Assembly (NCBI RefSeq): GCF_000768705.1
Contig: NZ_AVPJ01000003.1
Location: forward strand, 124,001 to 188,000
Length of the DNA stretch: 64,000 bases
Reading direction: 5' to 3'
DNA from: Knoellia sinensis KCTC 19936
Lineage (GTDB): Bacteria; Actinomycetota; Actinomycetes; Actinomycetales; Dermatophilaceae
Position numbers and translations under genes: made by a program. The notes under the pieces were generated by a model. That model was given only the letters and a program-made list of their open reading frames with translations, had not been told where the DNA came from and ran no database searches. Below are positions 1 through 61,891 of the stretch, in pieces. The first letter of the stretch is position 1, and the number at the start of each line of letters is the position of its first letter.

Positions 1-965
1 GCGTTGTAGTCGACACCGAGGGTGTTGGGGATCGTCAGCAGCAGCGTGTCGGCGGCGGCGATGGCCTCGTCCTCGGCGAGCTGGCGCACCAACTCGTCCG
101 GTTCGGCGGCATACGACTTCCCGAACCGCGCAAGCGAGCCATCGATCATGCCGACCTGGTCACTGCTGCGCCGGTCCGCACCGAAATAGGCGTGGTCCTG
201 CGCCGTCACCAGCGGGAAGATGCTGCGGCTCACCGACGTCCGTGGGGTGCGGTCGTGGCCGGCCTCACGCCACGCGTCGTGGAACATCTGGATCTGCTCG
301 GCCTGCAGCTGGTGGAAGGGCACCCCGGTGTCCTCGGTGAGCAGCGTCGAACTCATGAGGTTCATGCCCTGCTCCGCGGTCCAGACGGCCGTCGCGCGCG
401 TGCCGGCACCCCACCAGATGCGGTCCCGAAGACCGTCCGAGTGTGGCTCGAGGCGCAGCAGGCCGGGCGGGTTGGGGAACATCGGGCGGGGGCTGGGCTC
501 GGCGAACCCCTCGCCCTCCAAGAGGGTGAGGAACTGCGCCGTATGCCGTCGCGCCATGTCCGCGTCCGACTCGCCTTCGCGAGGTTCGTGACCGAAATGG
601 CGGTAGCCCTCGATGACCTGCTCGGGCGATCCTCGGCTGATGCCCAACTGGAGGCGCCCCTGCGCGATGAGGTCGGCGGCCCCGGCGTCCTCGGCCATGT
701 AGTGGGGGTTCTCGTAGCGCATGTCGATGACGCCTGTGCCGAGCTCGATCCGGCTCGTCCTCGCTCCGGCGGCGGCGAGCAGCGGGAAGGGCGATGCGAG
801 CTGTTGGGCAAAGTGGTGCACCCGGAAGTACGCCCCGTCTGCCCCCACCTCCTCGGCCGCCACCGCCAGCTCGATCGACTGGAGCAACACGTCGGAGGCT
901 GATCGGACAGCCGACTGCGGGTGGGGGTTCCAGTGGCCGAACGACAGGAATCCGATGTGCTTCAT
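1..965 (-). CDS. LLM-class flavin-dependent oxidoreductase (3' end outside window)
   Basis: This is a bacterial-luciferase-like TIM-barrel flavin monooxygenase that probably uses FMNH2 or F420H2; the substrate cannot be told. From the ATG at 965 the protein starts MKHIGFLSFGHWNPHPQS, followed by GAYFRVHHFAQQLASP, ELGTGVIDMRYENPHYMAEDA and LGISRGSPEQ, all typical of the family's FMN-binding barrel strands. About 321 residues are visible and no stop is reached, so only the last few C-terminal residues are missing (family about 340). It lies downstream of map on the same strand, with a gap of about 70 bases. The longer ORFs over this interval in other frames lack family similarity. Confidence 0.88.
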   Translation of the reverse strand, partial: MKHIGFLSFGHWNPHPQSAVRSASDVLLQSIELAVAAEEVGADGAYFRVHHFAQQLASPFPLLAAAGARTSRIELGTGVIDMRYENPHYMAEDAGAADLIAQGRLQLGISRGSPEQVIEGYRHFGHEPREGESDADMARRHTAQFLTLLEGEGFAEPSPRPMFPNPPGLLRLEPHSDGLRDRIWWGAGTRATAVWTAEQGMNLMSSTLLTEDTGVPFHQLQAEQIQMFHDAWREAGHDRTPRTSVSRSIFPLVTAQDHAYFGADRRSSDQVGMIDGSLARFGKSYAAEPDELVRQLAEDEAIAAADTLLLTIPNTLGVDYN

Positions 966-1037
966 ACCTGCATTCAACACCGCAGGTCGACGCCCATTCC
1001 TTGCATCGAACTCCGACCTCCGGATCCTGCCTGCGGG

Positions 1038-1886
1038 TCAGTCGAGTGGAGCGTAGGTCGCGCCGAGCTCGCGCAACATGGCCTCGCCACCGTCGATGGC
1101 GGTGAGAACCCAGAGACCCTGCGAGGTCGCCGCCACGGTGTTCTCCCAGTGGGCCGCGCGGGAGCCGTCGTTCGTCACGACCGTCCAGTCGTCCTCGAGG
1201 ACGCGGTTGGCCTCGTCGCCCAGGGTCACCATCGGCTCGATCGCGATGGTCGTGGCGTCGACGACCTTGGGGCCCTTGCCGCTCACGCGGTAGTTCGGCA
1301 CCTGCGGGTCCATGTGCATCGACGTGCCGATGCCGTGCCCGACGTAGTCCTCGACGATGCCGTACTCCCGACCGCGCCGCTCCCCCGCCGCGGTGATGCT
1401 GTCCTCGACAGCCGCGCCCACGGCATACAGGCTTTCGCCCACGGCGAGGGCGGCGATGCCCGCCCACATCGAGGCCTCGGTGTCATCGATGAGTTCGAGG
1501 TCCTCCGGTCGACCCGCCTCACGACCGCCGACGATGAGCGAGATCGCCGCGTCACCGTGCCAGCCCTCGACGATGGCGCCGCAGTCGATGGAGAGGAGGT
1601 CACCCTCCTGCAGGACACGGGATCCGGGGATGCCATGGACGACCTCCTCGTTGACCGACGTGCAGAGCGTGCCGGTGAAGCCGTGATAGCCCAGGAAGCT
1701 CGGGATACCGCCGCCGTCGCGGATGTGGGCCTCGGCGAGCGCGTCGAGTTCCTTGGTCGTCATGCCGGGCTTCACCGAAGCGCGCATGAGCTCGAGCGTC
1801 TGGCCGACGAGCAACCCGGCGGCGCGCATGAGCAGCACCTGGTCGTGGGTCTTGGCCTCGATGCGCTCACGTCCGAACAATCCCAT
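1038..1886 (-). CDS. map: Type I methionine aminopeptidase
   Basis: Removes the initiator methionine from nascent proteins, using a dinuclear metal site. The 282-residue protein has the expected metal ligands in order: Asp in LLSIDCGAIVEGWHGDAA (two Asp), His in VGHGIGTSMHMD, Glu in IAIEPMV and Glu in HWENTVA, plus the substrate His in GYHGF. The ATG at 1886 (MGLFGRER) is preferred over an in-frame TTG at 1895 because the N-terminus then matches actinobacterial homologues. In many actinobacteria map directly follows adk; here two extra genes and three inverted repeats separate them. Confidence 0.95.
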   Translation of the reverse strand: MGLFGRERIEAKTHDQVLLMRAAGLLVGQTLELMRASVKPGMTTKELDALAEAHIRDGGGIPSFLGYHGFTGTLCTSVNEEVVHGIPGSRVLQEGDLLSIDCGAIVEGWHGDAAISLIVGGREAGRPEDLELIDDTEASMWAGIAALAVGESLYAVGAAVEDSITAAGERRGREYGIVEDYVGHGIGTSMHMDPQVPNYRVSGKGPKVVDATTIAIEPMVTLGDEANRVLEDDWTVVTNDGSRAAHWENTVAATSQGLWVLTAIDGGEAMLRELGATYAPLD

Positions 1887-2574: not shown

Positions 2575-2671
2575 AATTCAACTAACGGGACCGCTCGCCA
2601 GTCCATTCCCGGATCCCGACGATGTGGCTCAGTGCACACAAGGCAGCCAGGCGTCCACCCCTCCAGCACGT

Positions 2672-2740: not shown

Positions 2741-3715
2741 TCAGGCGATCATCAGGTCGCGCGGATCGAGATCCAGCGCGCGGGCGACGAACTCGAGGGT
2801 GTCGATGCGCCGCGGTGCTCGGAACACGTCGTCGGCGAAAAGTTCGCGGACGGTGTGATCCAGGGATTCGAGCAGCCGCCGTTTGGCCTCATCGGCGCTG
2901 CGTGCCTTGATATCGGCGTGCACGCTCCCCTGGTATTCCGCGGCAACCCGCTTCGCGCGCCAGAGAAGGTCCGCCTCGGCCACGTACTCCCCTGCCTCGT
3001 CCAGCACGATTCCGTTGACCTCGGGTTCGGGGAAACCTGCTCGAACGAACATCAGTCGAGACCTCGACTCCATGGGCGACTTCACGCGGGGCCGGATGAG
3101 GGTCAGCGCTTCGGTGAGCATGACCTTGCCCCGGGGTCGCACGCGTCGCCCGAGCGCGGCGTGCAAGGCCCGCACGCCGGGTGACGTCCTCGAACCGGCC
3201 CGGATCGTGACCTCCGAGCGGGCGTCGAGCCGGGCCACGATGGCGTCGCCCATCACGACGAAGTCATCCACCGTCAGCCGACCGCGTCCCAACTCCCCCA
3301 GATCGCACCACGTGTCAGCCAGCCCGATCAGGCTCAGTCCTCCCACTTCCTCGACCTCACGGATCTCCAGCCCACGATGTCCCCGGCACCCTTCCCGCGC
3401 CACCTGCCCACCACGTGTGGGGGCCATGACGTCGAGGGGGCCGTGACGGCCTTCGTCCTCGAGGAAGTGAGGGAGGGGTAGATCGCGCAGGACCGCACAG
3501 GTGACGTGCGAGAACGCGCGGGCGGACGGCATACCCATGGCGAAAGCGGCGGCTCGCTCCTCCACGGTGACCGGCGCGCGCAAGGAATGGGCGCCGTGCG
3601 TCGGATGGACGAGATCACCGCGATGGAGGCGCATGCGCGGCAGCCCGAGTTCGCGAGCGCGGGCCGTGGAGAACGGCCCGCCGGCGAGCTCCTCGGGAAG
3701 CGGCTGCGGTCGCAT
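2741..3715 (-). CDS. AbiEi-like N-terminus with Vsr/DUF559-type endonuclease-like C-terminus
   Basis: A 324-residue protein with two regions. Residues 1-200 resemble the actinobacterial type IV toxin-antitoxin AbiEi-like group (PFSTARARELGLPRMRLHRGDL, then a beta-rich part). The C-terminal part resembles a PD-(D/E)XK / DUF559 very-short-patch-repair fold, with E216 in ESRSRLMF, D249 in YVAEADLLW and E260-x-Q-G in AAEYQG. This family is abundant in actinobacteria and its function is unproven; no partner AbiEii toxin gene is adjacent. It interrupts the usual adk-map linkage, is flanked by inverted repeats at 2672 and 3770, and so looks like a cargo insertion. Confidence 0.65.
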   Translation of the reverse strand: MRPQPLPEELAGGPFSTARARELGLPRMRLHRGDLVHPTHGAHSLRAPVTVEERAAAFAMGMPSARAFSHVTCAVLRDLPLPHFLEDEGRHGPLDVMAPTRGGQVAREGCRGHRGLEIREVEEVGGLSLIGLADTWCDLGELGRGRLTVDDFVVMGDAIVARLDARSEVTIRAGSRTSPGVRALHAALGRRVRPRGKVMLTEALTLIRPRVKSPMESRSRLMFVRAGFPEPEVNGIVLDEAGEYVAEADLLWRAKRVAAEYQGSVHADIKARSADEAKRRLLESLDHTVRELFADDVFRAPRRIDTLEFVARALDLDPRDLMIA

Positions 3716-5853: not shown

Positions 5854-5904
5854 TGCCGCAAGGCGAGTTCCCGGAGTGCCTCCGGGAACCGCGCCCTGCG
5901 GCAT
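5854..5904. terminator. Composite hairpin between rplO and secY
   Basis: Inner perfect 10-bp stem (GTTCCCGGAG / CTCCGGGAAC, 3-base loop, 5867-5889) nested in an outer TGCCGCA / TGCGGCA pair. The right outer arm carries a full CGGCATAC word. It is an intrinsic-terminator-like or attenuator structure in the middle of the operon, without an obvious U tract. Confidence 0.55.
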
Positions 5905-5921
5905 ACGCACTGTGGTGAAGC

Positions 5922-8703: not shown

Positions 8704-8761
8704 GGTATGCCGCGTGAGCGGCGGGGTGAGGTAGGCGCTGGACTGTGCCCAGCGGCATACC
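8704..8761. repeat. Inverted GTATGCCGC pair between rpsN and rpsH
   Basis: GGTATGCCGC at 8704 faces GCGGCATACC ending at 8761, so the octamer occurs as an inverted pair. The interior contains a weak CTGG/CCAG hairpin. It fills the middle of the 162-base rpsN-rpsH gap. An attenuator or a repeat-derived structure is possible. Confidence 0.6.
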
Positions 8762-9893: not shown

Positions 9894-10262
9894 TCAGAGC
9901 ACCTCCGGGGCCAGCGAGATGATCTTCATGAACTTCTTGTCGCGCAGCTCACGACCCACCGGGCCGAAGATGCGGGTACCACGGGGGTCACCGTCGGTCT
10001 TGAGGATCACTGCGGCGTTCTCATCGAACTTGATGTAGGAACCGTCGGCGCGACGGCGCTCCTTCTTGGTGCGGACGATGACCGCCTTGACGACGTCGCC
10101 CTTCTTGACGTTGCCGCCGGGGATGGCGTCCTTCACCGTGGCGACGATCGTGTCGCCAATACCGGCATACCGGCGACCCGAGCCACCGAGAACACGGATG
10201 CACAAGATCTCCTTGGCACCAGTGTTGTCGGCGACGCGCACTCGCGACTCCTGCTGGATCAC
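9894..10262 (-). CDS. rplN: 50S ribosomal protein L14
   Basis: uL14 forms an intersubunit bridge and binds RsfS. It has 122 residues, starting [20 protein letters not shown], with [11 protein letters not shown]-like basic loop and the C-terminal [19 protein letters not shown] 104-base gap with a strong hairpin precedes it. Confidence 0.98.
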
Positions 10263-10911: not shown

Positions 10912-11330
10912 CAGAAGTCACCACCCTCACGCTGGACGAAGCGGCACTTCATCGGCAGCTTGTGCATGGCCAGGCGCATGGCTTCGCGCGCGACCTCTTC
11001 GGACACACCGGAGATCTCGAACATGATGCGTCCGGGCTTGACGTTGGCGATCCACCACTCGGGCGAACCCTTACCGGAACCCATGCGGGTCTCAGCCGGC
11101 TTCTTGGTCAGCGGGCGGTCGGGGTAGATGTTGATCCACACCTTTCCTCCACGCTTCATGTAGCGAGTCATCGCAATACGAGCGGACTCGATCTGGCGGT
11201 TGGTGACGTATGCCGGCTCGAGAGCCTGGAGGCCGTAGTCACCGAACGCGATGGTCGTCCCACCCTTGGCAGCGCCGGAACGACCCGGGTGGTGCTGCTT
11301 GCGGTGCTTGACGCGACGGGGAATCAACAT
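10911..11330 (-). CDS. rplP: 50S ribosomal protein L16
   Basis: uL16 contacts the A-site tRNA elbow. It has 139 residues, starting [16 protein letters not shown], with [20 protein letters not shown] and the C-terminal [13 protein letters not shown]. One-base overlap with the rpsC stop. Confidence 0.98.
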
Positions 11331-12836: not shown

Positions 12837-13673
12837 TCAGCGCTTCTTGCCGGTGCGGCGTCGGCGGACGATCATCTTGTCGCTCGGCTTGCCGGGGCGA
12901 CGGGTGCGGCCCTCCGGCTTGCCCCAGGGGCTCACCGGGTGACGGCCACCGGAGGTGCGGCCTTCGCCACCACCGTGCGGGTGGTCGACCGGGTTCATGA
13001 CGACACCACGGACGGTCGGGCGCTTGCCCTTCCAGCGCATGCGGCCGGCCTTGCCCCAGTTGATGTTGGACTGCTCGGCGTTGCCGACCTCGCCGATCGT
13101 CGCGCGGCAGCGCGCGTCGACGTTGCGGATCTCACCGGACGGCATACGCAGCTGGGCGTAGGGACCGTCCTTGGCGACGAGCTGGACCCGGACGCCGGCC
13201 GAACGCGCGATCTTCGCGCCGCCACCGGGGCGGAGCTCGACGGCGTGGATGACCGTACCCGTCGGGATGTTGCGCAGCGGCAGGCTGTTGCCGGGCTTGA
13301 TGTCAGCGCCGGGGCCGTTCTCGATGTTGGCGCCCTGCTCCAGACCCTTGGGGGCCAGGATGTAGCGCTTCTCGCCGTCGGCGTAGTGCAGCAGCGCGAT
13401 GCGGGCGGTGCGGTTGGGGTCGTACTCGATGTGAGCGACCTTGGCCGGGATGCCGTCCTTGTCGTGGCGACGGAAGTCGATGAGGCGGTAGGCGCGCTTG
13501 TGGCCACCACCGATGTGACGCGTCGTGATGCGGCCGTTGTTGTTGCGACCACCGCTCTTGGTGAGCGGGCGGACCAGCGACTTCTCAGGCGTGGTGCGCG
13601 TGATCTCGACGAAGTCGGCGACGCTTGAGCCGCGACGGCCAGGCGTCGTCGGCTTGTACTTGCGGATACCCAT
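12837..13673 (-). CDS. rplB: 50S ribosomal protein L2
   Basis: uL2 is near the peptidyl-transferase centre. With the ATG at 13673 the protein is [17 protein letters not shown] and 278 residues, the standard length; the ORF stays open upstream to 13793 but that extension has no homology. [20 protein letters not shown] carries the conserved His close to the catalytic centre. Confidence 0.98.
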
Positions 13674-16007: not shown

Positions 16008-16490
16008 CTTGGCTTCCGTCTCTCTCTCGCCGTCTTCTTACTTCTGTCATGTGCCGGTCCCGGCTCCGACCCCCGAGGTCGGGCGTGTCGCGCCCGCTCC
16101 GCGGCCCGATGGCATACGCATTCCTGCGTCGTACCGTCGGATGGTTCGAAACTTCCGGTGAACCGGGTTTGCCTTGGGCCTGCCGTGTGTCGCCCCGGCG
16201 CCTGGCCGGTTCGGTGTGTTGTCACGAGCAGTGGCGGCCGCGCATCTCTCGAGAGGTCGAGGGGACGCACATCCGCACCAAGCAACCCGCCAAGTGTGCC
16301 AGAGCGGAGGGCGACCTACCAAATCGAGGTGGCGAGGCACGGCATACCGGCACAGATGGCGCGTCGCCGTGGCGAGTTTCCTGCCCAAAGCCGTGACGTA
16401 TGCCGTCCGCTCACCTTCGCGCTTCCCCGCCCTTCGGCGGTCCTCCCGTTCGAATCGTGGCGTCTCCTGACCGAACCTGTCGTGGACCGG
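16008..16490. other. S10 leader / intergenic region
   Basis: 483 bases without a convincing gene; the ORFs present are off-frame and low-complexity. It contains three CGGCATAC-type words (16111, 16341, 16398), one inside an 18-base string, GACGTATGCCGTCCGCTC at 16395, identical to the start of mceE. The S10 operon promoter and any L4-dependent leader are expected here, but no clear -35/-10 pair could be assigned by eye. Confidence 0.6.
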
Positions 16491-17176
16491 TCAGTCCGTT
16501 CCGCCGTCAGGCGAAGGCCGACGTGCCTGCGACAGGGCCCACTCGTCCCAGACGGTCAGTTGGTCACTCGGTTGGACCGCCGCCGCACCCGGCAACCGCT
16601 CGAGAACCCGGTCCACCAACGCATCTGGCCCGCCGACGAACGTTGCGACCAGGTCCGTGTCACCTCCCACGAGCCACTCGCGTGAGGTCGGCCAGAAGAG
16701 GTCGGGAGACAGGCCCCACCGCTGGTGGGGCACGTCCAGAACGTCCAGATCGTCGATGGTGGCCTCGAACAGCAGGTAGCCACGGTGAGGCAGCTGAAGT
16801 CGAGGCAGTTCCTCCACCTCTGGGGGAAGGCCGCAGGCACTGGCGACTGCTCGCCGGTGGCAAGATCGAAGGTCACGGCGCCCACGCCGAAGAGCCCGCC
16901 GTACCCCTCCCACAGGCCCGCCACGCACGGACCCGCATCGTCGCCGATGGCACCTCGCAGAGCCGAAGACAGCTGCCGCGGGAGATCTTCATCAGGCACG
17001 TCCCCAGGCTCGAGCGCGACGTGAGGAATGACGGCATACGCATCGAAGGTCTCGCCGACGACCGCGCCCACGGTCCCCCACGTGCCGAGCAAGGGCGCGA
17101 TCCACTCCCCCTCGCGCGCGGACGCGGGCATGAGGTCACCCCAGGAACGGATCGGCATAGAGGCAGGATGCCGCAC
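16491..17176 (-). pseudogene. Frameshifted hypothetical protein (two overlapping frames)
   Basis: The N-terminal half is read from 17176 (about REGEWIAPLLGTWGTVGAVV through AVTFDLATGEQSPVP). The C-terminal half lies in the next frame (GLPPEVEELPRLQLPHRGYL, LVATFVGGPDALVDRVLE, WDEWAL, stop at 16491). Together they match the layout of a common uncharacterised actinobacterial family that has GTVG..VGE.F.AYA, HRGYLLFE and LVATFVGG..AL boxes. The switch falls near a CCCCC run at about 16832. It may be a real one-base indel (pseudogene) or a sequencing error. Confidence 0.65.
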
Positions 17177-20857: not shown

Positions 20858-20896
20858 CGGTATGCCGGGTGCGCAAGGCGCGCACCCGGCATACCG
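20858..20896. terminator. Perfect CGGTATGCC hairpin between rpsG and fusA
   Basis: 17-bp perfect stem (CGGTATGCCGGGTGCGC / its complement) with a 5-base loop. It contains the CGGCATAC word in both arms and starts 6 bases past the rpsG stop in the direction of transcription. It could partly terminate or protect the rpsL-rpsG message ahead of fusA. Confidence 0.7.
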
Positions 20897-21746: not shown

Positions 21747-22144
21747 CCTGGTTCCTTTGTCTGGTCGTTGTCACAGCGGATGCTGCAACTCCTTGAGGTG
21801 TCCGGCGCTCGACCCCCGCGGTCGGGTGTGTCGCACCGGTTGCTCGTCCCTGCACTCCCCTTTTACAGGCCTCATCGACGGTGTCGAATCAGTCGTGGTG
21901 TGGGGCGCCCGGCACGAGGTGGGCGGCCTGGCGCTCTCGCGCTCGGCACGTGTGTTCTGGTCCTAGCCAGACACGGTTCTCAACGATACCGGTATGCCGT
22001 GAGCGCACCAAATCGCGCCGACCTCACCTCCCAGCGCACCTGCGGACGACGCCGCCACCGTTCGGGGGCTGCGTGACGATTCGCCACCCCCAGGAAGCCC
22101 GACAGGTCACAGACCACCCGACAGACGGGCCCTGGTGACGTGGA
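21747..22144. other. str operon leader / intergenic region
   Basis: 398 bases between rpsL and the GNAT gene without a supported gene. It holds one GTATGCCGTGAGCGCACC element at 21992. On the minus strand TTGAGA at about 21983 could be a -35-like box for rpsL, but no -10 box at good spacing was found. Confidence 0.55.
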
Positions 22145-31256: not shown

Positions 31257-31330
31257 GATGGCGCCTTTCTACTGTGTGTATGCCGTGAGTGGCGGTGGTG
31301 TTTTCCTGGACTCAACCGGATGGCTGGGTC

Positions 31331-40144: not shown

Positions 40145-41451
40145 TGGTTCACCACCATTCCCCGCAGCATCGGCCCGGCGAGCAGAGTTGCCAGCGAGGC
40201 ATCCTCCCCCTGCTTCACACCGACCAGCGCGCCCACGACCTTCTGCTCCTCGATCGTCCCGGCAACGCCTGCGTCCACCGCGGGGATCCGAGCAGCCCCG
40301 GGCGCGAGGAACGCCTGCGGCAACGTCGACATGGATGCCCCAGTCGTGGCCCCATCGGTGCCGTCATCGAACTTGGTCGCGCCGGCCGGATTGGCCTGGC
40401 TCCCCCTCGTGTTGTTGGGCAGGCCATGGCAGTTGGGTGCGCGCTTCTCGCCCCACGCCGGCTCCTCGCCCGGGTGGTACGGCTCCCGCTGTGGCGCCAT
40501 CTCGAGGGTGATGTGGAAGACACCGTCGCGCACGATGCCCTCCGCGCGAGGGAGGAACCTGACGAGGCCCTGCGTGAAGCACGGATAGATCGGCGAGTGC
40601 TTCGCCAGCACCTGGAGGGTAGGCCGCTGGACCCGACCCACCTGGATGATCCGGTTCTGGTTCGTCTCCAGGAACCCCGCGGTCGTGTTGGCGAAGCCGG
40701 CCGTGCCGGCGAGGAAGCCCGAGAGCTCCTTCTGCTTCTCGACAATGGTGGCATTGGTCGTGAGCAGCGCCTTCGCCGCGCGGAGCAGCTCGGGTGCCGC
40801 CACGGCATACGTGCTTGCCAGATCGGCCAAACCGGAGATGTCGGCCTGGATCGTCGGCATGTGCGGGTTGAGCTGGGTGAAGTACTCGTCGACGAGGACG
40901 AGGTTCTTGCCGAGCTTCGTCCCCCGCCCGTCGAGCGCCGTCGCGAGAGCGTTGAGGGTGGCTGCGAGCTTCGCCGGCTCGATCGAGCGCAGCAGCGGCA
41001 GGAGGTCCTCGAAGACCTGCTCCAGTTCGATGGCCACCGTCGTGCGGTCCTGGGGGATCACGTCACCCGCGCGGATCGCCCGCCCGGGCTCCCCCGCGGG
41101 TGCCACCAGGTCGACATAGCGCTCACCGAAGAGGGTCTTGGGCAACAGGCGGGCGCTCACCTTGGCCGGGATGAGGGGGACCATCTCCGGCTTGAGGGCC
41201 AGGTGCAGCGTCGCCCCTGCAGGCGTGGAGTCGATGCTGCGCACCTCCCCGACGATCAGTCCGCGGATCTTGACGTCCGATGCGGCCTGCATCTGGCTGC
41301 CGATGCGGTCGGTGTTGAGGGTCACCTCCACGACGTCCGTGAACACCTTCTTGAAGGATGCAATGGAGAGGCTGAGGAGGAGGGCGATGACGAGTAGGAA
41401 CGCCACGCCATAGGTGCGGTGACCGAGTCGTCCGAGAGTGGAATTGGCCAT
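40141..41451 (-). CDS. mceA: Mce family protein MceA
   Basis: 436 residues from ATG 41451 (MANSTLGRLGHRTYGV). Membrane anchor AFLLVIALLLSLSIASF, MlaD domain (VTLNTDRIGSQMQAASDVKI, LFGERYVDLVAP), helical region and a C-terminal domain (HSPIYPCFTQG) typical of MceA. First of the six mce genes, two bases after the second permease gene. The ORF runs upstream to 41490 inside yrbE without homology. Confidence 0.9.
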   Translation of the reverse strand: MANSTLGRLGHRTYGVAFLLVIALLLSLSIASFKKVFTDVVEVTLNTDRIGSQMQAASDVKIRGLIVGEVRSIDSTPAGATLHLALKPEMVPLIPAKVSARLLPKTLFGERYVDLVAPAGEPGRAIRAGDVIPQDRTTVAIELEQVFEDLLPLLRSIEPAKLAATLNALATALDGRGTKLGKNLVLVDEYFTQLNPHMPTIQADISGLADLASTYAVAAPELLRAAKALLTTNATIVEKQKELSGFLAGTAGFANTTAGFLETNQNRIIQVGRVQRPTLQVLAKHSPIYPCFTQGLVRFLPRAEGIVRDGVFHITLEMAPQREPYHPGEEPAWGEKRAPNCHGLPNNTRGSQANPAGATKFDDGTDGATTGASMSTLPQAFLAPGAARIPAVDAGVAGTIEEQKVVGALVGVKQGEDASLATLLAGPMLRGMVVNQ

Positions 41452-45189: not shown

Positions 45190-45231
45190 TTCGGTATGCC
45201 GTCCGCTCAGCCGAGCGGACGGCATACCGAA
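45190..45231 (-). repeat. 19-bp hairpin between rplK and rplA with paired CGGCATAC words
   Basis: TTCGGTATGCCGTCCGCTC and its exact complement (4-base loop). Both arms contain the octamer and the extended form GAGCGGACGGCATAC. It sits 20 bases past the rplK stop in the middle of the rplKA message. A role in attenuating rplA or processing is possible. Confidence 0.75.
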
Positions 45232-47285: not shown

Positions 47286-48107
47286 TCAGCCCGGCTCGCC
47301 CGCCTCTGCCTCCACACGCTGCAGCCAGTCGCGGAAGAGGGACTCCGTCAGTCCACGCAGTTCGAACTGCGCGTTGTGCCCGGCCCGGTCGAGCACCGCG
47401 AAAGTCGCTCGCGGGTAGTGCTCGATGAGCTCCCACTGGTCGCGATACCCGACCGACGAGTCCTGGCGCCCGAGCAGCCACAACGTCGGACGGTCGAAGG
47501 TGCGCCCCTCCTCGGGAAGGTGGCCCAGATCCCATCGTTCGGCAATGCGCGCCATTCCCTGCTCGTCCGCGAGCGCGAGGCCAGGTGCCACGTCAGCGGC
47601 GAACGCGGCATACGTCTCTGGGGTCTGGATGACCGCGTTGTCCTCGAACTCGCGGCGGCTCTGCGCGTCGAGGGTGTCCAAGAAGACCTCGTCCCGCTCG
47701 AGCACGACTCCGGGCGCCCTGGAGCGGGAAGCACGCTCCACCACCGGTCCCACGGGGCACACGAGCGCGAGGCCGCGCACCTGCCCGGGGCGGCGACGCA
47801 CGATTTCACGAGCGACGTAGCCGCCGTACGACTCCCCGACGAGGAGGAAGGTCGCGTCGCCCAGCCGCTCGTCGAGCATGGCCTCGACGCGGTCCACGAC
47901 GTCCGCGCTCGAAGCCGCGTCACCAACGGGTGAGCGGCCCATCGCCGGAAGGTCCGGGTAGATGCGGCGGTAGCCGGACACCTGCGCAAACAGGGGCTCG
48001 AGGAAGCCGGTCATGATCCGGTGGTCCGGAGTCCAGCCATGGATTGCGACGACGGGGATGCCCTGAGCGGGGCCGCGCTCGACGACGTGAAGGGCCGGTG
48101 TTGACAT
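47286..48107 (-). CDS. Alpha/beta-fold hydrolase
   Basis: 273 residues from ATG 48107 (MSTPALHVVERGPAQG). Oxyanion HGWTP near 23-27, nucleophile elbow GESYGG with Ser93, acid Asp216 in LLGRQDSSVG, and His244 in DRAGHNAQFE. A complete serine-hydrolase triad; substrate unknown (esterase/epoxide-hydrolase-like). It follows the sigma/ABC operon by about 55 bases on the same strand. Confidence 0.88.
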   Translation of the reverse strand: MSTPALHVVERGPAQGIPVVAIHGWTPDHRIMTGFLEPLFAQVSGYRRIYPDLPAMGRSPVGDAASSADVVDRVEAMLDERLGDATFLLVGESYGGYVAREIVRRRPGQVRGLALVCPVGPVVERASRSRAPGVVLERDEVFLDTLDAQSRREFEDNAVIQTPETYAAFAADVAPGLALADEQGMARIAERWDLGHLPEEGRTFDRPTLWLLGRQDSSVGYRDQWELIEHYPRATFAVLDRAGHNAQFELRGLTESLFRDWLQRVEAEAGEPG

Positions 48108-48162: not shown

Positions 48163-48789
48163 TCATGACCTGTCGCTGGCACCCCACAGGAGGGCCGCGA
48201 GACCCACACCGGCGACGACCAACCAGAACACGGTCGTCGACGCCTGCGTGCCCGACAGGTCGAAGGCCTCCACCCGCCACGGGAGTGGGACCACTCCGAG
48301 GCCCATGACGCTCAGCACCAGACCCGCTGTGACGCCGCCTGCCGGCTCGAGTTGTCCCCGCCGAACGAGCACCGCGGACAGCCCCACTCCGGCGAGGACC
48401 AGGCTGCACCCCACCAGCGCCTGGGCCCACCAGAGCGGGACTGCCACGGTCGGTTGGGAACGCCACACCACGGCATACGCCATCCAGACGGTCACCAGGA
48501 CGAGGCCGAGAGTGGCGCGCACAGCCGTCCGCCGCGCATGACCGGTCGGCGTCGCGGCGACCACGATGGCCGCCGGCTGGTCCATCGCGAAGCACGCTGC
48601 GCCGGCCAGCAGCGCCGCGCCCAGCCAGCCCGGAAGGGCCCCGGGCCCGCGCGGCCACAGCGTGAGGTCGAGCGCGAGGAGGAGGGCTGCCGCGCCAGCC
48701 GCGACCGACAACGGCCCCCATGCCACCGCCCTCAACTCGGCCCGCGCTGCGTCGAGCGGGATCACGAGAGGGTCCAACGCGGATCCCAC
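48163..48789 (-). CDS. Hypothetical multi-pass membrane protein
   Basis: About 208 residues with about six hydrophobic segments (LSVAAGAAALLLALDLTLW, LGLVLVTVWMAYAVVW, WAQALVGCSLVLAGVGLS, FWLVVAGVGLAALLW). It is not a family I recognise. It is last in the ECF/anti-sigma/ABC operon, probably a third membrane component. The GTG at 48789 gives 208 residues; a GTG at 48765 would give a GTGA overlap with the upstream stop like the other junctions. Confidence 0.6.
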   Translation of the reverse strand: MGSALDPLVIPLDAARAELRAVAWGPLSVAAGAAALLLALDLTLWPRGPGALPGWLGAALLAGAACFAMDQPAAIVVAATPTGHARRTAVRATLGLVLVTVWMAYAVVWRSQPTVAVPLWWAQALVGCSLVLAGVGLSAVLVRRGQLEPAGGVTAGLVLSVMGLGVVPLPWRVEAFDLSGTQASTTVFWLVVAGVGLAALLWGASDRS

Positions 48790-50575: not shown

Positions 50576-51426
50576 GCCGTTCCTCCCATCTGGGACAAGC
50601 GATCCGACCGGAGTGCGACGACGACTGCCGCCGCGAGAGCGATGAGGACATAGATGGGGAGCACGCCCCCGGCCAGGAGGTCGATGGTGGCCTGACCCCC
50701 CGATGCGCGACGCCCCTGCGCGACGACCGTTCCGCTGACGACGATCCACGCGATGGCCACCCCAGCAGCCGCGCGCGCCACCGGCCACCATGTGGCAAGT
50801 GCGAGGGTCAGGGCGACACCCGCGAGCGACGGCACCAACCACGCGACCGCCTGCCACGCAGGACCCGGCAGCAACGCGCCGGCGAGGGCAGACAAAGGCA
50901 GTGCGGTCGCGATCACGGCCACGGACCTGAGCAGGACGAGTCGGAGCGGTGAGAACGGGCTCGCGACGACGATCTCCCAGCTCGGGTCAGCGTCCTGGCC
51001 GAACGCCGTCGACACTGCGAGGACGGGCACCAACGGTGCGGTCCAGAGGAAGAGCAGGGTCGCGCCTTCCCCGCCCGCTGCCGCAGCCAGGATCGCGAAG
51101 ACCAGGCACAGCAGGATGCCGAGCAACCATGCGCCGCGCGCCGTCGGCGCCGATCGCACGAGGACGGCATCACGGTCGGTCAGGCCCAGCCGAATGAGGA
51201 CGCGCTCGGCAAGCGACGTCGACGGCGCCGACACTTCGGTCGCGATGCGGTCCCAGACGCCCCTCAGGGGCTCGGGGTCGGTCAGCGTGGCCACGACTTC
51301 ACGGCACTCCGCACACCGCACGAGATGCTGCTCGATCGACGCAGCGACGGTGGGCGTGCCCCTGCCTTCCATGTATGCCGTGAGCAGCTCTTCGTTCGCG
51401 TGCCACGTCCGCTGGTCCTGGCTCAT
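50572..51426 (-). CDS. Zinc-finger anti-sigma-like membrane protein
   Basis: 284 residues. The N-terminal zinc finger HLVRCAECREVV (H34, C38, C41) fits the ZAS/anti-sigma signature, and about six membrane segments follow, so it is a polytopic rather than the usual single-span form. It overlaps the sigma gene stop by four bases, an arrangement typical of a cognate sigma/anti-sigma pair. The polytopic domain may sense the exporter state. Confidence 0.78.
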   Translation of the reverse strand: MSQDQRTWHANEELLTAYMEGRGTPTVAASIEQHLVRCAECREVVATLTDPEPLRGVWDRIATEVSAPSTSLAERVLIRLGLTDRDAVLVRSAPTARGAWLLGILLCLVFAILAAAAGGEGATLLFLWTAPLVPVLAVSTAFGQDADPSWEIVVASPFSPLRLVLLRSVAVIATALPLSALAGALLPGPAWQAVAWLVPSLAGVALTLALATWWPVARAAAGVAIAWIVVSGTVVAQGRRASGGQATIDLLAGGVLPIYVLIALAAAVVVALRSDRLSQMGGTA

Positions 51427-52105: not shown

Positions 52106-53401
52106 GTGACCGAGCAGACCACCGTTGCCCCCCTGTCGTCCCTCTCCCCCGCTGAACTCGAGGCGTTCCTCGCAAGCCAGCGCACGGCATACACGGATCT
52201 TCAGAATCGCGGACTCAAGCTCGACCTGACGCGCGGGAAGCCGTCGGCCGAGCAGCTCGACCTCTGCAACGAGCTCCTCAGCCTGCCCAAGGGCCACAAG
52301 GACGCGAGCGGAACCGACGTCCGCAACTACGGCGGGCTCTCAGGTCTCCCAGAACTGCGTGCCATGTTTGCCGACCTCCTGTGGGTCGAGCCCGAGCAGG
52401 TCATCGCCGGCGGCAACTCCAGCCTGACGATGATGCACGACTGCCTCGTCCAGCTGCTGCTCCACGGCGGACCCGACTCCCCGCGGCCGTGGTCGCAGGA
52501 GGAGACGGTGAAGTTCGTCTGCCCCGTACCGGGCTACGACCGGCACTTCACGATGCTGGCGTCCTACGGCATCGAGATGGTCCCCGTCGCGATGCATGAG
52601 GACGGGCCCGACATGGCGGCCGTGCGCGAGCTCGTCAAGGACCCCTCGGTCAAGGGCATCTGGGTCGTCCCGACCTATGCGAACCCGTCCGGCGCGGTGT
52701 GCTCGCAGGAGGTCGCCAGCGAGCTGGCGTCGATGGAGACGGCGGCACCGGACTTCCGCATCTTCTGGGACAACGCCTACGCCTTCCACCACCTCACCGA
52801 GGACGAGGCCAAGAGCGCCGACATCATCACCCTGGCATCGGGGTCGGGGCACCCCAACCGCCCGCTGATGTTCGCGTCCACGTCCAAGATCACCTTCGCC
52901 GGTGCAGGCGTGGCGTTCTTCGCGGCGTCGAAGGCCAACGTCGACTGGTACCTCGGTCACCAGCAGTTCGCCTCGATCGGGCCCGACAAGGTCAACCAGC
53001 TGCGCCACATCCAGTTCTTCGGTTCGGCCGACGGCGTGCGCGAGCACATGGCACGGCACCGCGCGATCCTCGCTCCGAAGTTCGCTGCGGTCGACGATGC
53101 CCTGACGTCCGCCCTGTCCGGGCGCGACGTCGCGACGTGGTCAAAGCCGTCGGGTGGCTACTTCGTCAACCTCGACGTGCTGGACGGGACGGCATCGCGT
53201 GTGGTCGAGCTCGCCAAGGGCGCGGGCATCGCGTTGACGCCGGCCGGTGCGTCGTACCCCCACGGCAACGACCCGGACGACCGCAACATCCGCCTGGCGC
53301 CGTCGTTCCCCGTCCTCGACGAGGTCGAGACGGCCATGGCGGGGGTCGCGACATGCGTGCTCCTTGCTGCTGCCGAGAAGCTGTCCGGCACGCAGGGCTG
53401 A
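52106..53401 (+). CDS. AspT-type aspartate aminotransferase (class I-like, MocR/PF12897 group)
   Basis: PLP enzyme of 431 residues from the GTG at 52106 (VTEQTTVAPLSSLSPAELEA). The PLP lysine is in STSKITFAGAG; the cofactor pocket shows GGNSSLTMMHD and YANPSGAV, and WDNAYAFHHLTEDE. It matches the family of C. glutamicum AspT, which makes aspartate from oxaloacetate. It is divergent from the sigma factor gene, with a 128-base gap. Confidence 0.87.
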   Translation: MTEQTTVAPLSSLSPAELEAFLASQRTAYTDLQNRGLKLDLTRGKPSAEQLDLCNELLSLPKGHKDASGTDVRNYGGLSGLPELRAMFADLLWVEPEQVIAGGNSSLTMMHDCLVQLLLHGGPDSPRPWSQEETVKFVCPVPGYDRHFTMLASYGIEMVPVAMHEDGPDMAAVRELVKDPSVKGIWVVPTYANPSGAVCSQEVASELASMETAAPDFRIFWDNAYAFHHLTEDEAKSADIITLASGSGHPNRPLMFASTSKITFAGAGVAFFAASKANVDWYLGHQQFASIGPDKVNQLRHIQFFGSADGVREHMARHRAILAPKFAAVDDALTSALSGRDVATWSKPSGGYFVNLDVLDGTASRVVELAKGAGIALTPAGASYPHGNDPDDRNIRLAPSFPVLDEVETAMAGVATCVLLAAAEKLSGTQG

Positions 53402-53936: not shown

Positions 53937-54973
53937 GCGAGCGCGACACCGCAGCGCTGCCCAAGGCGCACCTGCACCTGCACTTCACCGGCTCGATGCG
54001 CGTCGAGACCGTCCGCGAGATGGCGCGCGCCCACGGGCTCCGGCTGCCGTCCGCCCTGGAGGCCGACTGGCCGGTGACGTTCGAGACCCGCGACGAACGT
54101 GGCTGGTTCCGGTTCCAGAGCCTCTATGACGCCGCCCGACACTGCGTGCGAGGAGAGGCCGACATGCGTCGAATCGTGCGGGAGGCCGCACTCGACGATG
54201 GCGCCGAGGGGTCGCGCTGGCTGGAGCTGCAGGTCGACCCCACGTCCTATGCACCCTTCGTGGGTGGCATCACCCCGGCGATCGAGATCGTGCTCGACGA
54301 AGCCGCTGAGATATCCCGCGAGGCAGGGGCGGCGCAGGTGGGCATCATCGTCGCGGCTTCGCGGATGCGCCACGAACTGGAGGCGCGCACCTTGGCGCGG
54401 CTGGCGGTGCGGTATGCCGGTGAAGGAGCGGGTGCCGTCGTCGGCTTCGGTCTGAGCAACGATGAGCGGCGCGGGGAGACGGAGGCCTTCGCGCCCGCCT
54501 TCGCGATCGCGCGCCGGGCCGGGCTGGCCTTGGTGCCGCACGCCGGTGAACTGCTGGGACCGGACGCGGTGGACCGGACACTCACGTCCTTGGTCCCGGA
54601 CCGGTTGGGCCACGGGGTGCGGTCGGTGGAGGACCCGCGGACCCTGGACCGGCTGGTCGCCGATGGGGTGGCACTCGAGGTCTGCCCCGGGAGCAACATC
54701 TCCCTCGGCGTCTACGACGAGATCGAGGAGGTCCCGTTGCGGCGCTTGGTCGACGCGGGTGCGACCGTGGCGCTGGGGGCGGATGACCCGCTGATCTTCG
54801 GATCGCGTTTGCAGGCGCAGTACGAAGTGGCGCGCTTGCTCGAGTTCTCCGACGCCGAGCTGGCCGAGCTCGCGCGTGGCTCGCTGCGCGCGTCGCGTGC
54901 GCCGGCAGAGGTGCGCGACACGGCATACGCGGACATCGACGCCTGGTTGGGCGAAGAGGCGACCGTCGGCTGA
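53933..54973 (+). CDS. add: Adenosine deaminase
   Basis: Hydrolyses adenosine or deoxyadenosine to inosine. 346 residues from the GTG at 53933. Zinc ligands are in HLHLHFTGS (about residues 13-21), in VPHAGELLGP and in LGADDP; the catalytic Glu is in HAGE and a further His in RLGHGVRS. It lacks the usual T in the TDDP motif (ADDP here) but keeps both Asp residues. Confidence 0.93.
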   Translation: MSERDTAALPKAHLHLHFTGSMRVETVREMARAHGLRLPSALEADWPVTFETRDERGWFRFQSLYDAARHCVRGEADMRRIVREAALDDGAEGSRWLELQVDPTSYAPFVGGITPAIEIVLDEAAEISREAGAAQVGIIVAASRMRHELEARTLARLAVRYAGEGAGAVVGFGLSNDERRGETEAFAPAFAIARRAGLALVPHAGELLGPDAVDRTLTSLVPDRLGHGVRSVEDPRTLDRLVADGVALEVCPGSNISLGVYDEIEEVPLRRLVDAGATVALGADDPLIFGSRLQAQYEVARLLEFSDAELAELARGSLRASRAPAEVRDTAYADIDAWLGEEATVG

Positions 54974-55979: not shown

Positions 55980-57053
55980 TCAGAGTTCGTGGCCGACGAA
56001 CACCGGCTCGTTGACCAACGTCACCCCGAAGCGGTCGTGCACCCCGTCGCGCACCTGGCGGGCCAACGCAGCCACATCGGAAGCAGCCGCCGAGCCACGG
56101 TTCGTCACGGCCAACGTGTGCTTCGTGGAGAGCGCCGCCGGTCCCGGCATCCCGAAGCCCTTGCCGAAGCCGGCCTTGTCGATGAGCCACGCAGCGCTCG
56201 TCTTGACGTCCCCGCTGGCATCCGCGAACCGCGGAGGGGTCGGTCCGTCCTCGCCGAGTTCGGCGCGCACCCGCTCGGTCAACGCCTCGAAGCGCACCGA
56301 CGACATGATCGGGTTGGTGAAGAACGAACCACAGCTCCACGTGTCGTGATCGCTGGCGTCGAGCACCATTCCGCGACGACGCCGTTGCTCGAGCACGCCC
56401 TCGCGCGCCTGAGCGAGTGGCACCCGCTTCCCCACCTCGACGCCCAACCCCGACGCGAGATCGGCATAGGCAATGGGCTGCGAGAGCTCACTCAGAGCGA
56501 ACTGGAACGTCACGTCGAGGACCACGAAGTCCGAACCGGCCTTGAAGATCGAGTGGCGATAGGTGAAGGCGCACTCCGCGGCCGTGAACGTCCGCACGTC
56601 CTGCGATCGGCGGTCGAAGACGCGCACGCGCGCGATGGTCTGCGCGACCTCCTGGCCATAGGCGCCGACGTTCTGCACCGGCGTCGCACCCGCAGATCCC
56701 GGTATGCCGGAGAGCGCCTCGATTCCCGACCAGCCTTCGTCGACCGCCCGGCTCACGACGTCGTCCCACACCTCGCCGGCGGCGACCCGGACCATCACAC
56801 CGCCGCACGCATCGTCGGACTCCACCTCGATGCCGGACGTCGCGACCTTGAGCACCGTTCCGGCGAAGCCGCTGTCGGCGATGACGAGGTTGGACCCGCC
56901 ACCGAGCACGAGCAGCGGCTCCTCGGCGTCGTCGACCTCGCGAACGGTGTCGACGATCTCGTCGATGGTCTCGGCGACGACGAGGCGCTGGGCGGGACCG
57001 CCGACTCGCATCGTCGTGTGCTCCGCCAAGGGTGCGTCGTGGAACTCCTGCAT
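55980..57053 (-). CDS. murB: UDP-N-acetylenolpyruvoylglucosamine reductase
   Basis: FAD/NADPH enzyme of peptidoglycan precursor synthesis, 357 residues from ATG 57053. FAD-binding VLGGGSNLVIADSGFAGTVL, GIEALSGIPGSAGATPVQNV, YRHSIFK, and the catalytic Ser in WSCGSFFTNP. The start overlaps the stop of the MaoC-like gene by four bases. The ORF is open upstream to 57296, without homology. Confidence 0.95.
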   Translation of the reverse strand: MQEFHDAPLAEHTTMRVGGPAQRLVVAETIDEIVDTVREVDDAEEPLLVLGGGSNLVIADSGFAGTVLKVATSGIEVESDDACGGVMVRVAAGEVWDDVVSRAVDEGWSGIEALSGIPGSAGATPVQNVGAYGQEVAQTIARVRVFDRRSQDVRTFTAAECAFTYRHSIFKAGSDFVVLDVTFQFALSELSQPIAYADLASGLGVEVGKRVPLAQAREGVLEQRRRRGMVLDASDHDTWSCGSFFTNPIMSSVRFEALTERVRAELGEDGPTPPRFADASGDVKTSAAWLIDKAGFGKGFGMPGPAALSTKHTLAVTNRGSAAASDVAALARQVRDGVHDRFGVTLVNEPVFVGHEL

Positions 57054-57475: not shown

Positions 57476-57921
57476 TGGTCCTCCCCTCCCCGAACGACGA
57501 TGGTGCTGGTCGAGGTGCACACCGGCTCCCCGTCCGCCGTCAGCTCCGTGCGGGTCGTGATCATCGCGTGCCCACCCGCCATGCGGATCGAGTCGATCGT
57601 CAGCTCACCCATGAGTGCGTCGCCTGCGGTGATCGGCCGGTGGTGGACGAACCGCTGCTCGCCGTGCACGACCCGGCCGTAGTCGATGCCCGCTTCGGGG
57701 TCCTGGACGTAGGCGCGGTCGCACTGCTGCGCGATCGTCACGGCGAACGTCGGCGGCGCGATGACATCCGCATACCCCGCCGCGCGCGCCACCTCGGCGT
57801 CGCGGTGCAGGGGGTCATCCGAGCCCACCGCGTCGGCGAAGGCGGCAATCTGATCGGCGCTCACGGCATACGGGCCGCTCGGCGGATAGGACCGACCCTG
57901 GAAGTCTGCGTTCACGGGCAT
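57472..57921 (-). CDS. MaoC N-terminal-like hydratase subunit (HadA-like)
   Basis: 149 residues from ATG 57921 (MPVNADFQGRSYPPSGPYAV). FAS1-type MaoC dehydratase N-terminal domain: AFADAVGSDDPLHRDAEVAR, VIAPPTFAVTIAQQCDRAYV and VHGEQRFVHHRPITAGD. Its active-site loop is altered relative to HadB, as is usual in HadA. It lies between rpmG and the HadB-like gene, the order rpmG-hadA-hadB-murB. Confidence 0.86.
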   Translation of the reverse strand: MPVNADFQGRSYPPSGPYAVSADQIAAFADAVGSDDPLHRDAEVARAAGYADVIAPPTFAVTIAQQCDRAYVQDPEAGIDYGRVVHGEQRFVHHRPITAGDALMGELTIDSIRMAGGHAMITTRTELTADGEPVCTSTSTIVVRGGEDQ

Positions 57922-60258: not shown

Positions 60259-60277
60259 GCGCGCCGAGCTGGTTGGC

Positions 60278-61891
60278 TCAGTAGCCCTGCCAGTTGCCCT
60301 GTCGCTCAAGGATGGTCGGCTCGAGCAGCGTCGAGGGCGAGAGCGGCATGGCGGCGCGGTCCTTCGGGAAGGTCTGGGCCGCCTCGAGAGTGTCCGCATC
60401 GAGGAACCGCGTGGTGGGTGCGTCCGCCGGCATCCGCAGCTCCGGGGCCGGTCCGTGCGTCGCGAGGAAGAATCCCCAGTCACCGAACGACGGAACGTCC
60501 ACGTGGTATGCCGTGGGGCTCAGTCCCGCTGCCCGCAGCGACGCCGCTGTGGTCCAGTACGCCTCGGGCGCGAAGTAGGGCGACCCCGCCTGGACGACGA
60601 CGCGACCGCCGGGGGCGAGTGCCCGCCGGACGAGCCCGTAGGTCTCGACCGAGTACAGCTTCGCGGTCGCCACGTCGTCGGCGTCGGGCATGTCGGCGAT
60701 GACGACATCGAACTCTTGCTGGTTCGCGCGGAGCCACGCGAAGGCGTCGGCGTGGACCACGTGCAGGCGCGGGTCGGCGAACGCGTCGTCGTTGAGAGTG
60801 CGCAGGGTCGGGTCCTGACGGGCGAGTCGGACGACGGCCGGGTCGAGGTCGACCAGCGTCACGGACGCCACATCGTCGTAGCCCAGGAGTTCACGGGCAG
60901 CCAGGCCGTCTCCGCCGCCGAGCACGAGGGCCCTCTGCCGCCGCCCGGACATCGCCGGGTGCACGAGTGCCTCGTGATAGCGGTATTCGTCCACCGAGGA
61001 GAACTGCAGGTCGCCGTTCAGGAACAGCCGGGTGTCCTTGCCCTTCATGCTGCGCGTCACGACGATCTCCTGGTACGCGCTGCGCTCCGAGTGCACGACC
61101 GGGTCTCGGAAGATGCGCTGCCGAGCCGTCGCCTCGAACGTCGACGCCAGACCGGCGAGGGCGAGCAGGGTCGCAAGGGTCAGGACCAGTGCGCCGGCCA
61201 CAAGCACGCGGGCCCGCCGACCTATGGACGTCCGAAAGAGGCCCAAGGTGACCGCGGCGCCGGCGGCTGCGTTGACCGCCCCGACCACGAGAGTGCCCTC
61301 GAGCAACCCGAGCCATGGCAGCAGGACGAAGGGGAAGGCCATTCCGCCCACGAGCGCCCCGACGTAGTCCGCCGCGAAGAGGTCGGCCACCGCCGACGAG
61401 GCTTCCTGACGTCGGATCCGCTGGAGCAGGGTCATGAGCAGCGGAATCTCGGCACCGATGAGGAGGCCGATCGCGAGCGCAAGAACGACGAGCATCGGCT
61501 GGTAGAGCGACCACCACGCGAACGCGGCATAGAGGACCAGGACGCTGGTGCCACCGACCAGGGCAAGCACGATCTCGACGGCGGCGAAAGCGACCGCAGC
61601 ATGCCGGGTCAGCGGCTTGGCAGCCAGGGATCCGATGCCCATCGCGAAGACCATGAGCGCCAGGACGACCGACGCCTGCGTGATGGTGTTGCCGAGCAGG
61701 TAGGACCCGAGCGCAACGAGCGCCAACTCGTAGACGAGGCCACAGGCGGCGCAGACGAACACCGCCGCGAGCACCAGTGAGCGCCGCAGCCGTGCGCGAC
61801 CGCTGAGCCGACCGCCCGCGGGGCCGCCAGGGGCTTCCGGGGCGTCGTCGTTGTGCGCGTCGGCGCGGTCGTTGACGAGGTTGGCGCTCAC
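60278..61891 (-). CDS. Membrane polyamine aminopropyltransferase (spermidine synthase-like)
   Basis: 537 residues. The N-terminal half is a membrane domain with about seven to eight hydrophobic segments, starting LVLAAVFVCAACGLVYELAL. The C-terminal half is a spermidine-synthase fold with LVLGGGDGLAARELLGYDDV as the SAM loop, SVTLVDLDPAVVRLA, and DMPDADDVATAKLYS in place of the usual D-x-x-DP, so substrate may differ. Membrane-fused SpeE proteins are known. Last gene of a five-gene operon with DUF350, lipoprotein, DUF2617 and DUF4178. Confidence 0.85.
   Translation of the reverse strand: MSANLVNDRADAHNDDAPEAPGGPAGGRLSGRARLRRSLVLAAVFVCAACGLVYELALVALGSYLLGNTITQASVVLALMVFAMGIGSLAAKPLTRHAAVAFAAVEIVLALVGGTSVLVLYAAFAWWSLYQPMLVVLALAIGLLIGAEIPLLMTLLQRIRRQEASSAVADLFAADYVGALVGGMAFPFVLLPWLGLLEGTLVVGAVNAAAGAAVTLGLFRTSIGRRARVLVAGALVLTLATLLALAGLASTFEATARQRIFRDPVVHSERSAYQEIVVTRSMKGKDTRLFLNGDLQFSSVDEYRYHEALVHPAMSGRRQRALVLGGGDGLAARELLGYDDVASVTLVDLDPAVVRLARQDPTLRTLNDDAFADPRLHVVHADAFAWLRANQQEFDVVIADMPDADDVATAKLYSVETYGLVRRALAPGGRVVVQAGSPYFAPEAYWTTAASLRAAGLSPTAYHVDVPSFGDWGFFLATHGPAPELRMPADAPTTRFLDADTLEAAQTFPKDRAAMPLSPSTLLEPTILERQGNWQGY

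Follow-up and report, generated by a model that had tools for sequence, protein, structure and literature searches.

A densely repeated octamer in an actinobacterial family resembles the DNA uptake sequences of Gram-negative bacteria

The 64,000-nucleotide stretch analysed here (the window; C12:124001-188000 of the source assembly G000, which holds 3,987,063 bases in 61 contigs) is densely populated by a short, non-palindromic octamer, CGGCATAC, which recurs about 2,500 times in the genome and whose enrichment is real, genome-wide and spread over much of one family. By analogy with the self-specific uptake sequences of Gram-negative bacteria, we propose that this word might be the signal of an independently evolved DNA-uptake-sequence system of Gram-positive actinobacteria, a reading to which we give a probability of about 0.6. 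It is favoured by the balanced occurrence on both strands, the dialects within the family, the terminator-like pairs and the synonymously kept coding copies, in addition to two word-poor regions of polysaccharide genes and the presence of comEA-comEC plus Tad loci. A preliminary description of this DNA had named uptake as the closest pattern and held a nucleoid, repair or regulator site to be equally possible; the closest pattern stands, and the evidence now tilts the balance towards it.

Genome-wide enrichment and placement of the word

In the window, which has a GC content of 67.4%, CGGCATAC occurs 37 times compared to 0.73 copies expected from 100 dinucleotide shuffles (largest 3), and the 9-mer ACGGCATAC occurs 25 times compared to 0.14 expected. 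The heptamer GGCATAC/GTATGCC is found 38 times, 23 on the + strand and 15 on the - strand. These counts reproduce exactly those of the preliminary description, the coordinates of which referred to the heptamer and lie at most one base from the octamer start; its estimate of two to three chance copies was too high. Over the whole assembly, with no word copies left out, CGGCATAC totals 2,485 copies (1,234 in forward and 1,251 in reverse orientation; one per 1.6 kb), against 33 + 35 = 68 copies of the reversed-word control, so the enrichment holds at the genome scale. Under third- and fourth-order Markov models of a 464-kb sample of G000, composed of 320 kb of contig C1 and 144 kb of C12 with the window included, the two most over-represented octamers are CGGCATAC and its one-base-shifted form ACGGCATA, with z values of 74-80 and 31-39 for the word octamers, compared to 16.6 and 10.8 for the best non-overlapping octamers.

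The word has a sharply defined core. Within ACGGCATAC, variants changed at either G, at the T or at the first, second or last C have only 0-4 copies each. The sole variants that exceed twice the expectation with more than 10 copies carry an A-to-C change at either A of CATAC (11 versus 3.4 and 23 versus 8.7 expected). In front of the core, A is commoner than C or G and T is nearly absent, as it is directly behind the core, giving an extended form of VCGGCATACV with A favoured in front. Weaker preferences for A are seen 6 and 11 bases upstream (-6 and -11), which are the same in coding and intergenic copies. The two strands are used evenly, with 91 of 174 copies on the + strand in the C1 stretch, 48 of 89 in the C12 stretch, and 1,399/1,406 copies on the two strands of the single-contig genome G003.

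Genes were called by a simple codon-model caller, which assigns 84% of the 464 kb to genes and overlooks some of those in atypical regions. Called genes hold 171 of the 263 copies, at a density of 0.44 per kb. Synonymous codon shuffling in 409 genes yielded 18.4 +/- 4.3 copies (the largest of 200 shuffles reached 30), compared to 164 in the real sequences. Most of the framed copies (138/168) lie in two frames, 80 and 58 respectively, that read Tyr-Ala or Ala-Tyr, and these dipeptides themselves are only 1.1 times as frequent as expected. In the C1 and C12 stretches, words are about four times rarer in the 20% of genes whose codon preference is strongest (0.136 copies per kb) than in the weakest three fifths (0.53-0.58 per kb), as if the words were least tolerated in highly expressed genes, to judge from these codon-preference classes.

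Between genes the density rises to 1.26 per kb (92 copies in 72.9 kb), which places 92 of the 263 copies in 15.7% of the sequence and extends the intergenic enrichment, first described for the window, beyond this locus. In the window, 20 of the 38 heptamers fall in the 12.7% without a called gene. They include all 18 sites that had been described as intergenic, here by independent codon-model calling, as well as those at 3528 and 17033, where the octamers 3527..3534 and 17032..17039, both on the + strand, lie outside called genes in places where a gene might have been missed. Of 72 intergenic copies that adjoin the 3' end of a gene, 50 sit within 60 nt of it, compared to 22% of random intergenic places.

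Many of these copies face each other. Among 26 neighbouring word pairs within 100 bp, 19 are both intergenic and arranged in the -,+ order of a hairpin. The 17 word hairpins that span up to 70 bp behind genes have a mean folding energy of -35.6 kcal/mol, compared to -15.7 kcal/mol after shuffling, and both of their outer flanks are rich in T (6.0 and 5.9 per 22 nt versus 3.6 expected). Judged by these sequence features, the facing pairs behind genes look terminator-like. Four hairpins in the window use the words as arms and fold with z values of -7.5 to -10.7: the intergenic hairpins at 20860..20894 (- at 20860, + at 20887; a 61-nt fold of -43.7 kcal/mol, z -7.5) and 45194..45227 (- at 45194, + at 45220; -39.6 kcal/mol, z -8.3), the hairpin downstream of rpoC at 22782..22810 (-48.9 kcal/mol, z -10.7), and that of the rpoB-rpoC spacer at 26793..26845 (-51.2 kcal/mol, z -7.8).

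The rpoB-rpoC spacer was read in 27 of 30 loci; G109, G062 and G019 were dropped as the start motif used for reading was not found. An inverted word pair occupies the spacer in 13 of the 27 genomes, namely 6/6 of genus g1, 2/2 of g36, 2/2 of g51, those of g52 and g61, and 1/5 of g42; the hairpin is thus built from the word in 12 of the 26 genomes other than G000. In the word-free genus g2, all five genomes have a GC-rich rpoB-rpoC hairpin that lacks the word. In three g42 genomes, the arms of this hairpin are GTGTGCCG...CGGCACAC, both altered together, and in G008, a relative of G000 with a 98% identical RpoC, both arms of the hairpin downstream of rpoC are CGGCACAC, so that the pairing is kept and the word is lost. 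From these paired changes in the arms, the stem seems to be under a constraint of its own, separate from the word, which would have been fitted into it.

An alignment of 39 kb between G008 and G000 showed that the words are intact at 14 of 20 sites, comprising 6/6 coding and 8/14 intergenic sites. In the permuted-word control, 57% of the coding and 29% of the intergenic sites are intact. The joint chance of this conservation is P about 0.003 on the assumption of independent sites, which the hairpin arms do not fully satisfy.

In the 464 kb examined, two regions of C1, at 35.6-56.2 kb and 218.2-239.9 kb, contain one internal word each. Two such word-poor regions of 20 kb arose in only 4 of 5,000 simulations. 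Of 20 proteins scanned from these regions, 18 match Pfam families, one of them below the cut-off, and 13 of the 18 are polysaccharide or sugar-nucleotide proteins, glycosyltransferases among them. Gene clusters for polysaccharides are often acquired horizontally, and we infer that both regions may be acquired DNA. Uptake sequences of the DUS/USS type discussed below build up in the core genome and are rare in acquired DNA.

Distribution and dialects among relatives

The family of the word-bearing genomes is probably GTDB Dermatophilaceae, as RpoC is closest, among named relatives, to that of Janibacter limosus (87%), which has 0 word copies in 23.9 kb. In the genus of G000 itself, CGGCATAC is common in all nine genomes searched. 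Of 148 family genomes, 76 carry 100 or more copies of ACGGCATAC, and the remaining 72 carry no more than 77; this survey misses genus g16, in which G023 has 49 copies of ACGGCATAC but 1,142 of CGGCATAC, with G in front. The distribution is patchy even within genera, with ACGGCATAC counts of 6, 276 and 893 in the genomes of g39, and of 9 in one genome of g56 compared to 103 to 781 in the others. Outside the family, 272 genomes of its order yielded a maximum CGGCATAC count of 177, in a genome whose reversed-word control reaches 135, so within the surveyed genomes the enrichment is restricted to the family. In an RpoC tree of 34 rows, the word-free genus g2 falls in one supported group with the word-bearing genera g1, g13, g36, g53 and g55. 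This placement therefore calls for losses or repeated gains of the word, and the inner fork is unsupported either way.

Sampling of 20-100 kb from each of 31 further genomes, in addition to one named locus, revealed that the word differs by genus. CGGCATAC is the dialect in most of the sampled word-bearing genera, whereas g4 and g41 carry CGNCATAC, as does g44 to a weaker degree. A third form, CGGCATCC, was seen in these samples in g40 and in G109 of g53. In whole genomes, CGGCATCC has 4,480 copies in G109, 3,949 in G047, 3,816 and 3,838 in g17, and 2,195 and 2,099 in the other two genomes of g53, the latter two of which also carry 462 and 436 copies of ACGGCATAC, respectively. Counts of 2,099 to 4,480 are thus confined to six of the 148 genomes (g17, g40 and g53), the remaining 142 having no more than 1,336. 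In the six dialect genomes, CGGCATCC exceeds its reversed control 8.7-17 fold, compared to no more than 6.6 fold in the others (G019); the control counts are high, at 126 to 512 per genome, because CGGCATCC is GC-rich. A switch of dialect in place between G109 and its relatives G060/G092 was considered and found unsupported when 20 kb of G109 was set against 33 kb of the relatives. In this comparison, CGGCATCC is shared by G109 and the g53 relatives at positions 9183 and 9200 of L177, and the other listed sites do not coincide.

Several weaker candidates were found. CGGCGTAC/CGTCGTAC in G056 (L136-L138, L196-L197) and CGCCGTAC/CGTCGTAC in G083 (L122-L123, L194-L195) are only 4-7 times as frequent as expected, and 40 kb of G056 contains no -,+ pairs of CGGCGTAC/CGTCGTAC within 60 bp; these words are perhaps further dialects or mere composition. 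CCGCATCG in G072 is likewise a candidate dialect only. Separately, the g2 genomes G009 and G132 contain 1,336 and 1,210 copies of CGGCATCC, about 4 times the reversed control and more than any other g2 genome searched. That this marks a second dialect, weak or in decay, is only a lead, as other genera reach similar ratios.

Uptake-sequence proposal and alternative explanations

Self-tagging of DNA for uptake is, according to a 2025 paper, known only from the Neisseriaceae and the Pasteurellaceae. The DNA uptake sequences (DUS) of the former and the uptake signal sequences (USS) of the latter comprise hundreds to thousands of motifs per genome, inverted repeats that act as terminators, and dialects (PMC12616744, PMC3630211). 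The DUS resemble the word of G000, being short non-palindromic words of thousands of copies in genic and intergenic DNA, with inverted pairs that serve there as terminators and dialects that differ by a few bases within the family (PMC3630211, PMC12616744). They differ in sequence, phylum and envelope; moreover, G000 lacks the type IVa pilus marker, and hence the context of a ComP-type minor pilin, and has few near-match copies, and the word is here recognized from its sequence pattern. The USS have no sequence in common with the word. Their density is similar, at about one per 1-2 kb in Haemophilus compared to one per 1.6 kb in G000. They also share a short core with weaker flank preferences, and two types per family (PMC12616744). 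The extended USS is described there as having an A/T-rich run downstream, whereas the word of G000 has single A positions upstream and no adjoining T. The cyanobacterial highly iterated palindrome HIP1 is likewise an octamer iterated genome-wide, with uneven frequency among the members of a lineage (PMC4390886), but the word of G000 is non-palindromic and arranged as terminator-like pairs.

G000 possesses candidate machinery for uptake. The competence genes comEA (SLBB plus HHH) and comEC, which the preliminary description had suggested looking for, are present and adjacent (L188:9896-13236). Three loci are of the Tad type: L242 encodes RcpC, Flp pilins and TadE; L243 encodes a DUF4244 pilin, with TadE and T2SSF matches below the cut-off; and L244 encodes three TadE/TadG-like proteins, one below the cut-off. 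A similar combination of comEA-comEC with tad clusters is reported for the actinobacterium Micrococcus luteus, whose genome has comEA/comEC orthologues and in which the tad genes and ComEC are required for transformation; the sections of that report available to us mention no uptake word (PMC4322843), and G000 differs in having three Tad loci. A type IVa pilus was rejected as the reader of the word, PilM_2 being absent from G000 and from 144 of the 148 family genomes. In a side observation, the word-free genome G014 (g7) is alone among the 25 genomes searched in having no T2SSE/Tad ATPase match above the cut-off, yet it has both ComEC and HHH_3.

We propose that VCGGCATACV, the extended form of CGGCATAC, would serve as the uptake signal for self-preferring natural transformation in this actinobacterial family. 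Word-bearing DNA would be bound at the cell surface by a receptor, for which a component of a Tad/Flp-type competence pilus or ComEA is the likeliest candidate; ComEA-ComEC would then pass in one strand, and recombination would favour the word-bearing alleles. Over time, the word would accumulate wherever it is tolerated, namely at synonymous sites of coding DNA and in the spacers behind genes, where a facing pair might double as a transcription terminator. As the specificity of the receptor drifts between genera, the word of the genome would follow, giving rise to the dialects. That a Tad/Flp pilus or ComEA, and no type IVa minor pilin, reads the signal, and that its three or more dialects isolate the genera genetically, seems to us slightly better than an even bet. 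Since PilM_2 is not in G000, and since uptake and receptor are here argued from analogy, we describe the word as working like the DUS and USS rather than as a member of either.

If this proposal is true, the family would be the third known to tag its own DNA for uptake and the first outside the Gram-negative Proteobacteria. It has long been asked why self-tagging is limited to Neisseriaceae and Pasteurellaceae; an independent further case, with another pilus and another envelope, would allow comparative tests of how such systems arise, what they cost and how they are lost, helped by close genera with another dialect or none. It would also suggest that natural transformation might be used as a genetic tool in this family. 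A search of the open-licence literature, which was not exhaustive, gave no uptake word for actinobacteria, and a search by the letters of the word gave nothing relevant among the matches listed.

The traits compared here agree with the DUS/USS pattern apart from three, namely the scarce near matches, the convergent spacers and the missing type IVa pilus, and several observations weigh against the proposal. One-mismatch forms of ACGGCATAC within the octamer core are scarce (79 versus about 56 expected, beside 164 perfect copies), which counts against uptake because sequences of this kind, as they drift, would be expected to be surrounded by many near matches; such a cloud is a trait of the Haemophilus uptake sequences, and we do not hold it to be defining. 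Convergent spacers carry 0.72 words per kb, compared to 1.57 in tandem and 1.25 in divergent spacers, which speaks against a simple terminator role, as bidirectional terminators would be most useful there. Words are mostly not co-located between the species of g53, where no in-place switch was seen. Furthermore, the type IVa pilus marker PilM is found in only 4 of the 148 family genomes, and a literature search, not exhaustive, gave no report of transformation in this family. ComEC (147/148) and HHH_3, the ComEA domain (148/148, one below the cut-off), are present with or without the word, and the Flp-type RcpC does not track it across the 148 genomes. Tried as markers of word presence, none of ComEC, HHH_3 and RcpC in these genomes, nor the T2SSE ATPases in 25 genomes, separates the genomes, and the comparison of these markers identified no receptor; the link between word and uptake therefore rests on pattern and not on co-occurrence. 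Finally, G050 (g43) has 616 copies of ACGGCATAC, no ComEC match and a weak HHH_3 match, although its com genes may merely be missing from the assembly, a draft of 760 contigs.

Beyond uptake, the weight lies mainly on a chromosome protein, methylation or Chi. A site for a chromosome-wide architectural or segregation protein (nucleoid-associated, or SMC/FtsK/MatP/Noc-like) is unlikely, although it would suit a dense, genome-wide word with a strict core, few near matches and sites conserved in G008, and gain or loss of such a protein could produce the patchy family distribution. It would not lead one to expect the facing pairs behind genes or the near-empty polysaccharide-gene regions, and the lack of orientation bias on the contigs is contrary to translocase-read signals such as the FtsK-orienting polar sequences (KOPS). 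Somewhat less likely still is a tie to a DNA methyltransferase or a related self-marking system like the cyanobacterial palindromes, HIP1 being reported as linked to orphan methyltransferases (PMC4390886). The sharp preference for a single word and the patchiness between and within genera agree with it, but the word is not palindromic, and the hairpin placement behind genes does not fit. A Chi-like recombination signal, read by a nuclease of the RecBCD/AddAB/AdnAB type, would likewise be an 8-base, non-palindromic, clade-specific word over-represented in genes. Signals of the Chi type lean to one strand of each replichore, and both Chi and KOPS are biased relative to replication; such a signal is weakened by the balanced strands of C1 and C12, counted in contig stretches that were not placed on replichores, and as it also leaves the enrichment in facing pairs unexplained, we regard it as improbable.

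The hairpins behind genes and their T-rich flanks would agree with a word that is primarily a transcription terminator or a mobile repeat spread between genes, like the repetitive extragenic palindromic (REP) elements. The word is, however, not confined to intergenic DNA as REP-like repeats are: the 171 of 263 copies in called genes, far above the synonymous expectation, largely refute this explanation, g2 builds its rpoB-rpoC hairpin from other sequences, and we consider it very improbable. The same share of genic copies weakens the reading as a regulator site. Codon usage or composition alone might be suspected from the predominance of Tyr-Ala and Ala-Tyr among the coding copies, yet it is refuted by synonymous shuffling, by the 68 reversed words genome-wide and by the near-expected frequency of the two dipeptides, which leaves it a negligible chance.

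Individual sites in the window and other repeated words

The remaining copies of CGGCATAC in the window are distributed as follows. Within genes, words at 10163..10170 (+), 11208..11215 (-), 13140..13147 (+), 35259..35266 (-), 36874..36881 (+) and 40803..40810 (+) are kept in G008. Other genic copies stand at 107..114 (+), 541..548 (-) and 1421..1428 (+) near the start of the window, and at 47606..47613 (+), 48471..48478 (+), 51373..51380 (-), 52185..52192 (+), 54412..54419 (-), 54921..54928 (+), 56702..56709 (-), 57864..57871 (+) and 60506..60513 (-) towards its end. Single intergenic copies are found at 5899..5906 (+) and 30648..30655 (+), at 21992..21999 (-) and 31278..31285 (-), both kept in G008, and at 32176..32183 (+), lost in G008. 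The heptamer GGCATAC alone, with T in front, lies between genes at 16111..16117 (+). Two further intergenic pairs differ in arrangement: the inverted pair at 8705..8760 (- at 8705, + at 8753), of which the first word is altered and the second kept in G008, and a pair in the opposite order at 16340..16405 (+ at 16340, - at 16398). As for the two intergenic word hairpins outside the rpo genes, both words at 20860..20894 are altered in G008, and both at 45194..45227 are kept.

Other repeated words were noticed in the sampled genomes. In 24 kb of Homoserinibacter gongjuensis (L041), CGCATCCG has 24 copies compared to 3.4 expected, and in 24 kb of Gryllotalpicola ginsengisoli (L042), ACGGATGC/GCATCCGT has 15 compared to 1.2, so a similar word in Microbacteriaceae is possible. 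A TCCGCACCTACTC-like word occurs in G098 (g11; L116-L118, L201-L202), where TCCGCACCTA, with 15 copies in 100 kb compared to 0.1 expected, is probably part of a longer repeat. AAACCCGGGTTT-type words are found in 24 kb of Nocardioides jejuensis (L025), among which AACCCGGGT has 8 copies compared to 0.1 expected. In addition, three stretches of about 40-90 bases in G109 (L177:14309-14397, 15949-16030 and 9303-9351) have many dispersed partners of 74-100% identity in that genome, and these repeats are not built from the dialect word. The rpoC matches G058:C6:737470-741351 and G104:C7:198776-202654 each contain one in-frame TGA.

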